Positions 42,557 through 46,096 of a stretch of 64,000 bases of DNA are shown here, in pieces (positions within the stretch are counted from its first letter, which is position 1; each line of letters begins with the position of its first letter). This stretch comes from Actinomycetota bacterium (GTDB taxonomy: Bacteria > Actinomycetota > Acidimicrobiia > Spongiisociales > UBA4744): the NCBI GenBank assembly GCA_013152275.1, contig JAADGS010000028.1:1-64000 (forward strand), read 5' to 3'. The notes under the pieces are model-generated. The model searched no databases. It worked only from the letters and a program-made list of their open reading frames with translations, and was not told the DNA's origin. The translations under genes and the position numbers were made by a program.

Positions 42557-42959
42557 GACGATTCGGAGCCGGGCACGGAGACGTCCGAGTTCGTCGACGA
42601 CGGCGGTTACGCGCCTGGCGCGCCTGTACGGACACACCGCAACCGAAAAGGGTCTTTCGCCTCTGGTCGGCTTCCGATGACAGACAGATGATGGGGACAG
42701 TTCAGGGGACCGGAGCCGGTAACGTCTACGTGCCAGGCGCCGGTACCCGAGAGAGCCGGGAGCAACTCGACCCCAATCGATCCCACACCCCTCCCGGCTC
42801 TCTCCTCGCGTCCAACATCCGAGAAGGACAGCTCGTCTCGAGGCTCCCACCGGGAGACACTCCCGGCTCTCTCCTCGCGTCCAACATCCGAGAAGGGCCG
42901 TTCGACCCTGGTCGTACCCCCATGAGCCTGCAAGAATCCTGCGCACCGAAAGGCGGTCC
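42557..42959. repeat. intergenic gap carrying a 37-bp direct repeat and nested hairpins
   Basis: No credible gene. Two identical 37-bp copies beginning CTCCCGGCTCTCTCCTCGCG lie at 42791-42827 and 42860-42896 (period 69 bp). The left part of the repeat pairs with an inverted arm GAGAGAGCCGGGAG near 42751-42764. CCGGGAG-ACA-CTCCCGG (42850-42866) forms a tight hairpin at the second copy. Upstream, CGTGCCAGGCGCCGG near 42729 is a further palindromic block. The overall look is that of a REP/MITE-like intergenic element. Translations of the repeat in either strand are short and repetitive and I do not treat them as protein. Confidence 0.7.
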
Positions 42960-43421
42960 ATGTTCGTCTCCTACTTCTCACAAGTCCCTGTGCCCTTCGA
43001 CATAGCCGTCGAACGACTCGAGCCGGTGCTCGGTGAACTCGGCGGATGGGCCCACGAGGCATACCGGAATGGCGAGAAGCTGCGAGCGAGAATCGGAATG
43101 GGAAAGGTCGCACCCATGATCGCGAAGACCGTCGTACTGGAGACGGCCACCCCTGAGCGGGGACTGGACAGCTTGATCATCCCCGTCTCCTGGAGGGCGA
43201 CGGGGGCGCCGATGTTCTTCCCCATGATGCGGGCAGATCTGCACCTGCTACGGGTCTCGAAGGACACGACCCAGATCAGACTCAGTGGCTCGTACACGGT
43301 CCCTCTGGGCTCGATAGGACAGATCTTCGACGATGCGCTCCTCCATCGCATCGCAGAGGGCACGATCGAGAACTTCGTCAATCGTATCGCAGAGGCGCTG
43401 ACGACGACACGACGGGAATAG
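42960..43421 (+). CDS. hypothetical protein, SRPBCC-like
   Basis: 153 residues. The run of strands and the closing amphipathic helix (FDDALLHRIAEGTIENFVNRIAEALT) suggest a START/SRPBCC hydrophobic-ligand fold. PVSWRATGAPMFFPMMRADLHLLRV and QIRLSGSYTVPLG are central strands. The first residues FVSYFSQVPVPFDIAVERL are also typical for that fold. No catalytic residues or family name recognised. It starts 64 bp after the direct repeats. Confidence 0.6.
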   Translation: MFVSYFSQVPVPFDIAVERLEPVLGELGGWAHEAYRNGEKLRARIGMGKVAPMIAKTVVLETATPERGLDSLIIPVSWRATGAPMFFPMMRADLHLLRVSKDTTQIRLSGSYTVPLGSIGQIFDDALLHRIAEGTIENFVNRIAEALTTTRRE

Positions 43422-43435
43422 GCCGCCGGGCGGAA

Positions 43436-44113
43436 TCAGAAACGTTGTGTGGTGCGAAAACGACGAGCGGCCGTTCTCGCCCGGCGCAAGGGTTCCGGAG
43501 TACGAAACCGGCCCGTCGCAAGCTTCACGATCTCCACGGCAAGCTCCGGGTCCGTTCGCCATCCGGCGTGCACGCACAGGGGACGCACCCCGGCCCTTGT
43601 CCGCAGCCAGTACCCGACGACCTCTCCTCCCAACGTCAGTGGGGACCGGGACCAGCGCTGCTCCCGGGGCCACACGCCGGAGGCCAGGAGCGGACGGTGC
43701 GTTACACCGACCGTGGGAATGGCGAGGACGGCTCCGAGATGCACGGCGAGCCCGCAACGACGGGGGCTGTCTCGCCCGGTCGCATTCACGATGAGCACGT
43801 CGGGCTCCCCTTCGAGAGCATCCACGGCTGCTGCGAGAAGCGGCCCTTCACGAAGCGCGAGGAGCCCCGGCCGGTAGGCGGCACCGGCAGGGCCCCTCAC
43901 CACTGCAACCTGGGCATGCCGTCCACGCTGCATCATCACGGCCGCGGCCCATCCCGGGTCACCGGCGTCGCCTGCTCCCGTCCCACCTCTCGGAAAGCAG
44001 ACGAAAACGCCACCGACGGACGGGGTCCCCGACACGGCGAAGACACTCGGCTGCATCGAACCGAGGCAAGCCTGCACATCGCGGAGATCCTCGGCGGTGC
44101 GTGGCCAGTCCAT
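43436..44113 (-). CDS. endonuclease V-like protein lacking most catalytic residues
   Basis: 225 residues aligning with endonuclease V through YRPGLLALREGPLLAAA, EPDVLIVNATGRDSPRRCGLAVHLGAVLAIPTVGVTHRPLL, and PLCVHAGWRTDPELAVEIVKLATGRFRTPEP. Nuclease-site residues differ from E. coli EndoV: the first Asp (ADV) is Ser (AVS), the DG-x-G Asp is Asn, and the late His (SPGHR) is Trp (HAGWR). Only the Glu of LRE is kept. It may therefore bind deaminated nucleic acid without cutting it. TACCCT lies 6 nt before the ATG. The longer open frame to 44203 is rejected. Confidence 0.75.
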   Translation of the reverse strand: MDWPRTAEDLRDVQACLGSMQPSVFAVSGTPSVGGVFVCFPRGGTGAGDAGDPGWAAAVMMQRGRHAQVAVVRGPAGAAYRPGLLALREGPLLAAAVDALEGEPDVLIVNATGRDSPRRCGLAVHLGAVLAIPTVGVTHRPLLASGVWPREQRWSRSPLTLGGEVVGYWLRTRAGVRPLCVHAGWRTDPELAVEIVKLATGRFRTPEPLRRARTAARRFRTTQRF

Positions 44114-44147
44114 ATGCCAAGGGTATCGAGACCCCGGGGAGTGTCGA

Positions 44148-44759
44148 CTACTTCTTCTCGGATTCGTAGAAGGGACTGGTGCCGGCCTGATGGTCGGTGA
44201 CATCGATGATCTGTCCGAGATCCGGAATCATGCGACGAAGGATCTGCTCGATTCCCTGCCGCAACGTGACCGAGGCGAGTCCACATCCTTGGCAGCCGCC
44301 GAGTAGCCGCACGTACACGTCCCGGCCCTCGACGCCCACGAGCTCCGCCGATCCGCCGTGCGAGACGATCGCCGGATTCACCTGTTGCGAAAGGACCTGA
44401 GCGACCTGCTCGGCCAACGATCCCGTCGGCGTCCCGACCGAATCCAGATCGAAGGTCGGGCTCGCGGGCCGGTTCGGGTTCTCCATGGCCAACCCACCGG
44501 CCTTCACGTCCAGGAGAGCACCGTCGAGCTTCTCGATGTCTTCATTTCGCAGAGCGAGCGCAAGTTCACCATGGCGCTCGATGCGGTGTGTCCGCTCCAC
44601 GTCCGAGAGCGGCACGAAGCTCAGCTCGTACGCGAAATCGTTGCCGTGCATTCCGGTGACTTCCAGCAAGAGCGCTGCTTCGAGATCACCGGCCTCCTGG
44701 TCCCGGATCTCGATGATCTTGGTGCGGGCGAGGTCGGTGATCGTGAGTGTTCGTGCCAT
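44148..44759 (-). CDS. nfuA: NfuA-like iron-sulfur carrier (degenerate A-type domain plus NifU C-terminal domain)
   Basis: 203 residues. The first 95 resemble an A-type (HesB/IscA) scaffold without its three cysteines, as in NfuA. Residues 115-190 are the NifU C-terminal domain, with QQVNPAIVSHGGSAELVGVEG and the cluster-binding CxxC in LLGGCQGCGLASVTL. Two protomers would share one [4Fe-4S] cluster through these cysteines and deliver it to client enzymes such as the radical SAM protein or hydrogenase in this window. The ATG is preceded by TACGAT at 10 nt. Confidence 0.88.
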   Translation of the reverse strand: MARTLTITDLARTKIIEIRDQEAGDLEAALLLEVTGMHGNDFAYELSFVPLSDVERTHRIERHGELALALRNEDIEKLDGALLDVKAGGLAMENPNRPASPTFDLDSVGTPTGSLAEQVAQVLSQQVNPAIVSHGGSAELVGVEGRDVYVRLLGGCQGCGLASVTLRQGIEQILRRMIPDLGQIIDVTDHQAGTSPFYESEKK

Positions 44760-44878
44760 TGCGGGTCACATCGTACCGGGGGCCCGACGCAACATCCGGT
44801 CCCTGTTTCGGCTTCGCCGGCTCACGGTCCCAGGCAGGCTGCAAGCCCCTACCGACGAGAAACGACGATCATGGGTCC

Positions 44879-46096
44879 GTGAGCACCGCAGTCATCATCC
44901 TCCCCACCGGAACCTACCGTGCAGGCGACTTCATCGAGGCAGCCAGATCGCTGGGAGTGGGTCTGATCATCGCCTCCGAGGAACGCCACACCCTGCTGGG
45001 CGACGAGGGATTCATCCCCATCGACTGTGCGGATCCACGCCGTTCCGCGGAGGCCATCGTCGAAGCCGGCGACCACCACCCGATCGACGCCGTGATCCCG
45101 GTGGACGATGCCGGCGTCATGATCGCGGCGATAGCCTCCGAGGGGCTCGGACTGGCTCACAATCCCCCCGCAGCGGTCGCCGCCACCCGCAACAAGGCGA
45201 TCCTGCGCAGGGCGCTCGAGGAACGCGAAGTTCCACAGCCCGCCTTCGAACTCGCCGCACCCTCGAGCGATACCGTCGCACTTGCGGAATTCGTCGGAGT
45301 CCCGGTGGTGATCAAGCCCCTTTCGCTCTCTGCAAGCAGAGGTGTCATCAGGGTCGACCACCCGCTTCAGGTCCCGCCCGTGGTTGAGCGAATCCGTCGT
45401 ATCCTCGCCGTCGCCGGCCGGAATCCGAACGAACCGATCCTCATCGAGCGTTACATCCCGGGGAAGGAGATCATCCTGGAGGGGCTCCTCGTCAAGGGGG
45501 TGCTGAGCGTCCTGGCCTTCTTCGACAAACCGGAGCCGATGAGGGGCCCCTACTTCGCAGAGACCATGCTCGTGACACCATCGAGGCTCCATCCCGAGAT
45601 CCTCGAGGAGGTCGAGACGGTGACCGCTCGAGCCGTCCAGGCGTTGGGTCTGCGGGAAGGCCCCATCCACGCCGAGCTTCGCATCGACGGGAGTCGGGTG
45701 GCGATCATCGAGGTGGCAGCTCGCTCGATCGGAGGGCTGTGCGGCCGGTCCTTGCACTTCGGGCTCCTCGGAACGACCTTGGAGAATCTGTTGCTCAGGC
45801 ATGCCCTCGGGTTGCGCCTGAACACCCGACGCGAAGATATCGCATCGGGCGTTCTGATGATCCCTGTACCGAGTGCGGGAACGTTGCAGACGGTCGACGG
45901 ACTCGACGCCGCCAGGGACGTGACCGGCATCACCGAGGTCGTCATCACGATCCCCCCGGGCACGTACGTCATTCCGGTCCCTGACGGAGCACGCTACCTC
46001 GGCTTCCTCTTCGCGAGAGCAGACACTCCTCTCGAGGTCGAGACGTCTCTGGCAGCGGCCCGAAGCGAACTCGAAATCGTGATCACCCCGGACTGA
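44879..46096 (+). CDS. ATP-grasp domain enzyme
   Basis: 405 residues. A Rossmann-like N-terminus (VIILPTGTYRAGDFIEAARSLGVGLIIAS) is followed by an ATP-grasp core: NKAILRRALEEREVPQPAF, VIKPLSLSASRGVIRVD, ILIERYIPGKEIILEGLL and HAELRIDGSRVAIIEVAARSIGG (metal site). The family joins a carboxylate to an amine, thiol or similar group, like biotin-dependent carboxylases or amino-acid ligases. No substrate clue comes from MalQ downstream. GTG 44879 is chosen because the translated homology starts there. Confidence 0.88.
   Translation: MSTAVIILPTGTYRAGDFIEAARSLGVGLIIASEERHTLLGDEGFIPIDCADPRRSAEAIVEAGDHHPIDAVIPVDDAGVMIAAIASEGLGLAHNPPAAVAATRNKAILRRALEEREVPQPAFELAAPSSDTVALAEFVGVPVVIKPLSLSASRGVIRVDHPLQVPPVVERIRRILAVAGRNPNEPILIERYIPGKEIILEGLLVKGVLSVLAFFDKPEPMRGPYFAETMLVTPSRLHPEILEEVETVTARAVQALGLREGPIHAELRIDGSRVAIIEVAARSIGGLCGRSLHFGLLGTTLENLLLRHALGLRLNTRREDIASGVLMIPVPSAGTLQTVDGLDAARDVTGITEVVITIPPGTYVIPVPDGARYLGFLFARADTPLEVETSLAAARSELEIVITPD

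Follow-up and report, generated by a model that had tools for sequence, protein, structure and literature searches.

Sequence comparison points to a conserved endonuclease V subfamily with replaced catalytic residues and a largely retained base pocket

The window, that is, the whole stretch of 64,000 nucleotides analysed here, encodes a protein which, judged from its sequence, is a conserved variant of the endonuclease V (EndoV) family. The alignment indicates that the subfamily to which this protein belongs still has the EndoV fold, with its wedge Tyr and the greater part of the base pocket; in the place of the catalytic Asp of the first strand an aromatic residue is always found, the second Asp is mostly Asn, and the phosphate-locking Lys/His pair appears as His or Asp in the first position and Arg in the second. 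Four residues seem to be new and invariant (D115, R140, W185 and R213), and two others new and nearly invariant (D/E52 and H182). The explanation that we favour, with somewhat less than even confidence, is a neofunctionalised EndoV that would take a deaminated base in the old pocket and grip the backbone with no Mg-dependent cut, serving as a reader or holder.

An intact gene with a predicted EndoV fold

The gene is an unbroken open reading frame, as had been claimed in the original prediction (Table 1), and its start codon is supported by the residues W3-P4, common to the N-terminus of 12 aligned members of the subfamily. The Pfam Endonuclease V model (PF04493) matched the window protein with an E-value of 3.1e-36 and 125.4 bits (curated cut-off, 23.4), and matched all of the full-length subfamily members (n = 23; E up to 1, best 8.1e-41), whereas the cut-offs of NCBI's two EndoV equivalog models were missed widely (112.7 vs 230, and 97.6 vs 300). 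The window gene was the only PF04493 match in the whole genome (3.07 Mb in 100 contigs, listed as 100% complete), and the search for an active EndoV elsewhere in this genome, which had been proposed with the original prediction, thus found none.

A structural model was obtained with AlphaFold2 using as input the window protein and four relatives (mean pLDDT 80.4, pTM 0.82; values below 50 at residues 1-7 and 115-117). The best 35 PDB chains retrieved with this model by Foldseek were all EndoV, which, together with the Pfam match, bears out the assignment as an EndoV homologue. In VIA-align comparisons, the model aligned with the Streptomyces avermitilis EndoV (3goc) over 215 residues (Z = 26.2, rmsd 2.7), and with 2qh9, described in the consulted part of PMC11585767 as AfuEndo_dU, over 146 residues (Z = 14.2). 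The model accordingly predicts for the window protein an RNase H-like fold of the EndoV type.

Catalytic and pocket positions

A MAFFT alignment was made of the 23 full-length members and 35 canonical EndoVs; identical proteins, as well as fragments and broken copies (L011, L012, L017, L018, L027, L036 and L089), were left out of the count. The canonical set was a non-random one, composed of the top scorers to the subfamily profile from two phyla, without enterobacterial, archaeal or eukaryotic EndoVs. Between residues 80 and 185 the numbering of the window protein is identical to that of TmEndoV. According to the sections of PMC4650699 consulted, the TmEndoV Mg contacts are D43, position 89 and D110, the phosphate is locked by K139 and H214 (the E. 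coli counterpart of the latter being D210), Y80 belongs to the wedge, and the pocket is formed by G83, L85, G111, G113, G121 and L142.

The window protein departs from both canonical sets, since it reads F37, E89 and N110 for the Mg-binding D43/E89/D110, and H139 and R213 for the phosphate-locking K139/H214 (Table 1). Phe37 lies inside the predicted first strand of the AlphaFold model (residues 32-39), and the register that places it in the D43 column was the same in a profile-profile alignment. The original prediction had proposed that three of four catalytic positions were lost, and the count stands (D43, D110 and H214), although for residues partly other than those named. The change of the DGxG Asp to Asn and the retention of the Glu were both correct; the first Asp was said to be Ser, but its column holds Phe37 in both alignments, and the Trp taken for the replacement of a late His (W185) aligns with TmEndoV residue 185, a non-invariant position in canonical EndoVs, the H214 column being occupied by Arg213. 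The replacement of K139 had gone unmentioned.

These losses and replacements are common to the 22 other full-length members, and for this reason chance, a sequencing artefact or a one-gene oddity was ruled out; the prospect, raised with the original prediction, that close relatives would keep the residues is contradicted by the same observation. In total, 35 alignment columns were invariant across the 23 members.

Table 1. Location of the EndoV-like gene, its diagnostic codons and neighbouring features in the window.
Feature	Coordinates	Strand	Remarks
45-nt direct repeat	42791-42904		two copies of 93% identity separated by 69 nt; 14-nt inverted arms
153-aa protein gene	42960-43421		no Pfam or NCBIfam match
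EndoV-like gene	43436-44113	minus	225 aa + stop; intact ORF
Arg213 codon	43475-43477	minus	column of phosphate-locking His214; R in 23/23 members; H26/D9 of 35 canonical
Trp185 codon	43559-43561	minus	new invariant Trp; W in 23/23 members; H23/N9/S1/W1/D1 of 35 canonical
His139 codon	43697-43699	minus	column of phosphate-locking Lys139; H15/D6/T1/R1 of 23 members; K in 35/35 canonical
Ser116 codon	43766-43768		Ser in window protein, Asn in congener; His in 21/23 members and 35/35 canonical
Asp115 codon	43769-43771	minus	new invariant Asp; D in 23/23 members; A in 35/35 canonical
Asn110 codon	43784-43786	minus	column of catalytic Asp110; N16/D7 of 23 members; D in 35/35 canonical
Glu89 codon	43847-43849	minus	kept; E20/D1/V1/A1 of 23 members; E in 35/35 canonical
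Tyr80 codon	43874-43876	minus	wedge Tyr, kept; Y in 23/23 members and 35/35 canonical
Asp52 codon	43958-43960	minus	new acidic position; D18/E4/G1 of 23 members; loop column, uncertain alignment to canonical EndoV
Phe37 codon	44003-44005	minus	column of catalytic Asp43; F19/Y2/W2 of 23 members; D in 35/35 canonical
NifU-domain (NfuA-like) gene	44148-44759	minus	PF01106 E 9.8e-21; below NfuA equivalog cut-off

Two further positions distinguish the subfamily: position 140 is R in all members vs S21/T7/N3/Q3/H1 in the canonical EndoVs, and position 182 is H21/S2 vs S in all 35; a Thr at position 138 is also new. As for the pocket, G113, G121 and L142 were each kept in the 23 members, and G83 and L85 in 21 each (A in two members and M in two, respectively), whereas the G111 column, G28/A7 in canonical EndoVs, is always Ala in the subfamily. 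The window protein itself has the wedge Tyr and the pocket residues G83, L85, G113, G121 and L142, with Ala at 111 as in 7/35 canonical EndoVs.

These data bear on the idea of an altered pocket, in which Asp115 and Ala111 would favour a different base or a small nucleotide, bound or acted on instead of inosine. The switch from invariant Ala to invariant Asp at position 115, the fixed Ala111 and the new T138 and R140 are what such a pocket might look like; however, the wedge Tyr and the five other pocket residues are kept in all or 21 of the members, which points to a nucleic-acid base that is flipped out in the EndoV manner, and the placement of D115 rests on the low-confidence stretch of the model (residues 115-117). 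We therefore regard an altered specificity as improbable.

Distribution and selection

In an unrooted tree, the 23 members constituted one side of a branch with a support of 100/100 and a long stem. Twelve confirmed holders were detected among 138 genomes of the order to which the window genome belongs, at least two of them with fragments located at contig ends or with broken copies, and, apart from the window genome, 10 further holders were found among 396 sampled Actinomycetota genomes. The gene was also present in 4/151 genomes of the phylum represented by G527 (locus title, Candidatus Dormiibacterota), and each of these four genomes had a single EndoV locus. From the named collection came the holder Haloechinothrix aidingensis, together with two other Acidimicrobiia records and one fragment whose title reads Chloroflexi. 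The subfamily was thus found in no fewer than two phyla, one of them Actinomycetota. The matches in phages (3 records) and plasmids (21 records) were all below 60% identity and below 80% of the query, the best among the matches listed having 43% identity over 62%. No description of the subfamily was found in the titles and abstract openings of the open-licence literature.

The dN/dS ratios of five pairs were about 0.23, 0.18, 0.18, 0.21 and 0.29 (dS > 1 in two pairs), showing purifying selection on the subfamily in these pairs. A decaying EndoV remnant, which we consider highly improbable, would fit the patchy spread within the order (12 confirmed holders/138 genomes) and the broken or truncated copies (L017, L027 and a second copy in G150), but it would have to accommodate the invariant columns, the low dN/dS ratios and, above all, new residues that are invariant, which decay does not produce. 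The G150 genome has two copies of the subfamily gene, one intact and the other divided between two frames (C99:38042-38701 and C33:2276-2937).

In the phylum sample, none of the holders had a canonical EndoV beside the subfamily gene (0/11), vs 95/385 of the other genomes (one-sided Fisher test, p = 0.047, uncorrected for kinship). The absence of another EndoV in these holders means that the subfamily protein could fill the same role, and the strong PF04493 match is also what would be expected of an ordinary Mg-dependent endonuclease V tolerating the changes. Against this possibility, to which we give very little credence, both Asp columns that are invariant in the 35 canonical EndoVs (D43 and D110) are changed in the window protein, and its scores are far under the equivalog cut-offs.

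Gene neighbourhood

The NfuA-like gene lies upstream on the same strand, 34 bp from the start of the EndoV-like gene; given this short gap, co-transcription of the two genes is plausible, although the NfuA-like gene is treated here as a neighbour outside the proposed function. The original prediction had assigned to the EndoV-like gene a promoter box of its own, but this was unsupported by a scan for sigma-70-like sites, the only type searched for, which yielded none in positions 43,000-45,000 (0.2 expected). Neither the tRNA scan nor the Rfam scan of the window gave a match. The 45-nt repeat is located upstream of the gene for the 153-aa protein, and its 19-nt core was found nowhere else in the genome.

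The neighbourhoods of 24 loci were compared with the window. The NfuA-like gene and the gene for the 153-aa protein recurred close to the EndoV-like gene in five genomes belonging to the same family as the window genome, and an ATP-grasp ligase and a GH77 gene recurred in four. Beyond the family, a gene group that by eye is ABC transporter ATPase-like recurred in L015, L017, L072 and L076, one gene group of L014 was common to three family genomes, and the SDR dehydrogenase group of the window was present in L079 and three family genomes; the three groups were taken as common gene families. Pfam scans of 20 neighbours (not always direct) from 12 loci revealed no repeated partner; the genes at these loci were called with a simple GC-bias caller and may be wrong. 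A conserved operon was dropped as a candidate, the neighbourhood being a trait of the family with no clearly recurring partner beyond it.

Co-occurrence with RtcB

In the distant genome G677 (L087:1453-3618), the rtcB RNA ligase gene is followed on the same strand by the subfamily gene, with 12 nt between the rtcB stop codon and the subfamily start; this is the only genome in which RtcB is the direct neighbour. Within the Actinomycetota sample, RtcB was present in all of the subfamily holders (n = 11/11), in 83/95 genomes with a canonical EndoV and in 138/287 genomes with neither; G250, G227 and G505, which had weak or partial rows, were left out of the 396 genomes for this count, and genomes for which no locus accompanied the match were classed as canonical by score alone (49-117 bits). 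Within the order, RtcB was present in 11/12 confirmed holders vs 56/126 of the remaining genomes, with G519 excluded from the holders (18.5 bits). The one-sided p-values of the link (0.0026 and 0.0016) are only indicative, because the test was post hoc after the G677 finding and relatedness was not modelled. The control gene Ku showed no enrichment (7/13 vs 91/125, or 6/12 vs 92/126 without G519). In at least eight genomes (G295, G165, G338, G188, G381, G306, G153 and G463), a canonical EndoV gene and rtcB are convergent and 143-1385 bp apart.

The co-occurrence hints weakly at an RNA-side role and is best treated as a lead, one that concerns EndoV in general as much as the subfamily. In the open-licence literature, endonuclease V and RtcB occurred together in a single paper, PMC7824862.

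A possible reader or rebuilt nuclease

The original prediction had suggested a binding protein for deaminated DNA or RNA, or another activity. Both options survive, in a sharper form: the wedge and pocket are kept, the metal ligands replaced and new invariant residues added. For the neofunctionalised EndoV that we prefer, a purine-like base, most simply a deaminated one, would still enter the old pocket, the protein would grip the backbone, and the Mg-dependent EndoV cut would have been lost. The protein might then recognise or hold lesions or edits of the inosine type, perhaps those of RNA, and might hand the site to other enzymes, the sole lead to a partner being the RtcB co-occurrence. The Asn110 need not prevent binding, since the D110N variant of T. 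maritima EndoV was crystallised with inosine DNA (title of 6ozf). The presence of RtcB in the 11 sampled holders and the gene placed directly behind rtcB in G677 also favour a reader; on the other side, the co-occurrence extends to the genomes with a canonical EndoV (83/95), and the association is post hoc and uncorrected for kinship. Moreover, D110 is kept in 7/23 members and E89 in 20/23, residues that a pure binder would not need, the acidic and His residues newly conserved in the subfamily could take part in chemistry, and the model has low confidence at residues 115-117. Endo_dU, with no conserved first Asp, still cuts, as stated in the part of PMC11585767 consulted.

A close rival, rather less probable in our judgement, is that the protein is still a nuclease, either with a rebuilt site (D115, D/E52 and E89) or with a metal-independent one (His/Asp139, His182 and Arg213), as in Endo_dU. 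The high conservation of D115 (23/23), D/E52 (22/23), H182 (21/23) and E89 (20/23) argues for it, as do the fold match to 2qh9 and what the same part of PMC11585767 relates of Endo_dU: a first Asp that is not conserved, H, R or K at the fourth position, and activity on dU-DNA even in EDTA. In contrast, three members have V, A or D at position 89, residue 139 varies, and the weak matches to the Endo_dU model PF01949 are unspecific (18/23 subfamily members vs 19/35 canonical EndoVs). A further proposal, which we hold to be less likely than not, is that Asp115, Asp/Glu52, His182, Trp185, Arg140 and Arg213 form a new site round the kept pocket, making the protein a new modified-base enzyme or reader that would work together with the RtcB ligase in an RNA-side role.

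Subfamily proteins may be filed, on account of their EndoV family match, as inosine-specific repair nucleases, a function that is unlikely here by the EndoV mechanism. A natural reader of inosine that leaves the strand uncut could be turned into a mapping tool for inosine, and its existence would suggest that deaminated or edited nucleic acid is recognised in some bacteria with no cut being made. A rebuilt nuclease would, together with Endo_dU, show more than one departure of the EndoV scaffold from its usual metal chemistry. The wider EndoV-RtcB co-occurrence observed offers a way to test whether bacterial EndoV is connected with RNA repair.

Comparison with known systems

The Dis3/RNase II pseudonucleases are, in the part of PMC8097288 consulted, a comparable case of a nuclease branch that lost catalysis and whose proteins function as RNA-binding proteins; they differ from the present one in belonging to an unrelated nuclease family, and the window genome has no active paralogue.

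Endo_dU (DUF99, PF01949; A. fulgidus 2qh9) has an EndoV-related RNase H-like fold, a first Asp that is not conserved and a positive residue at the fourth catalytic position, again from the consulted part of PMC11585767. The window protein, however, scored 14.4 bits with PF01949 (cut-off, 32.7) and by its sequence is not an Endo_dU member, and PF01949 was absent from the 59 genomes searched (its own and those of relatives). A special kinship with Endo_dU was considered on the basis of weak PF01949 matches in 9/12 and 18/23 members, and was dropped because 19/35 canonical EndoVs match the model weakly too.

Endonuclease V itself (Nfi, PF04493; T. maritima 2w35/6ozf and S. avermitilis 3goc) is alike in its full-length fold, wedge Tyr and most pocket residues, and shares with the subfamily R88, R118, G127 and R204. 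Unlike endonuclease V, the subfamily has F, Y or W in place of the strand-1 Asp, mostly Asn at D110 and replacements of K139 and H214, together with its invariant D115, R140, W185 and R213 and a longer loop between strands 1 and 2 that carries an acidic residue.
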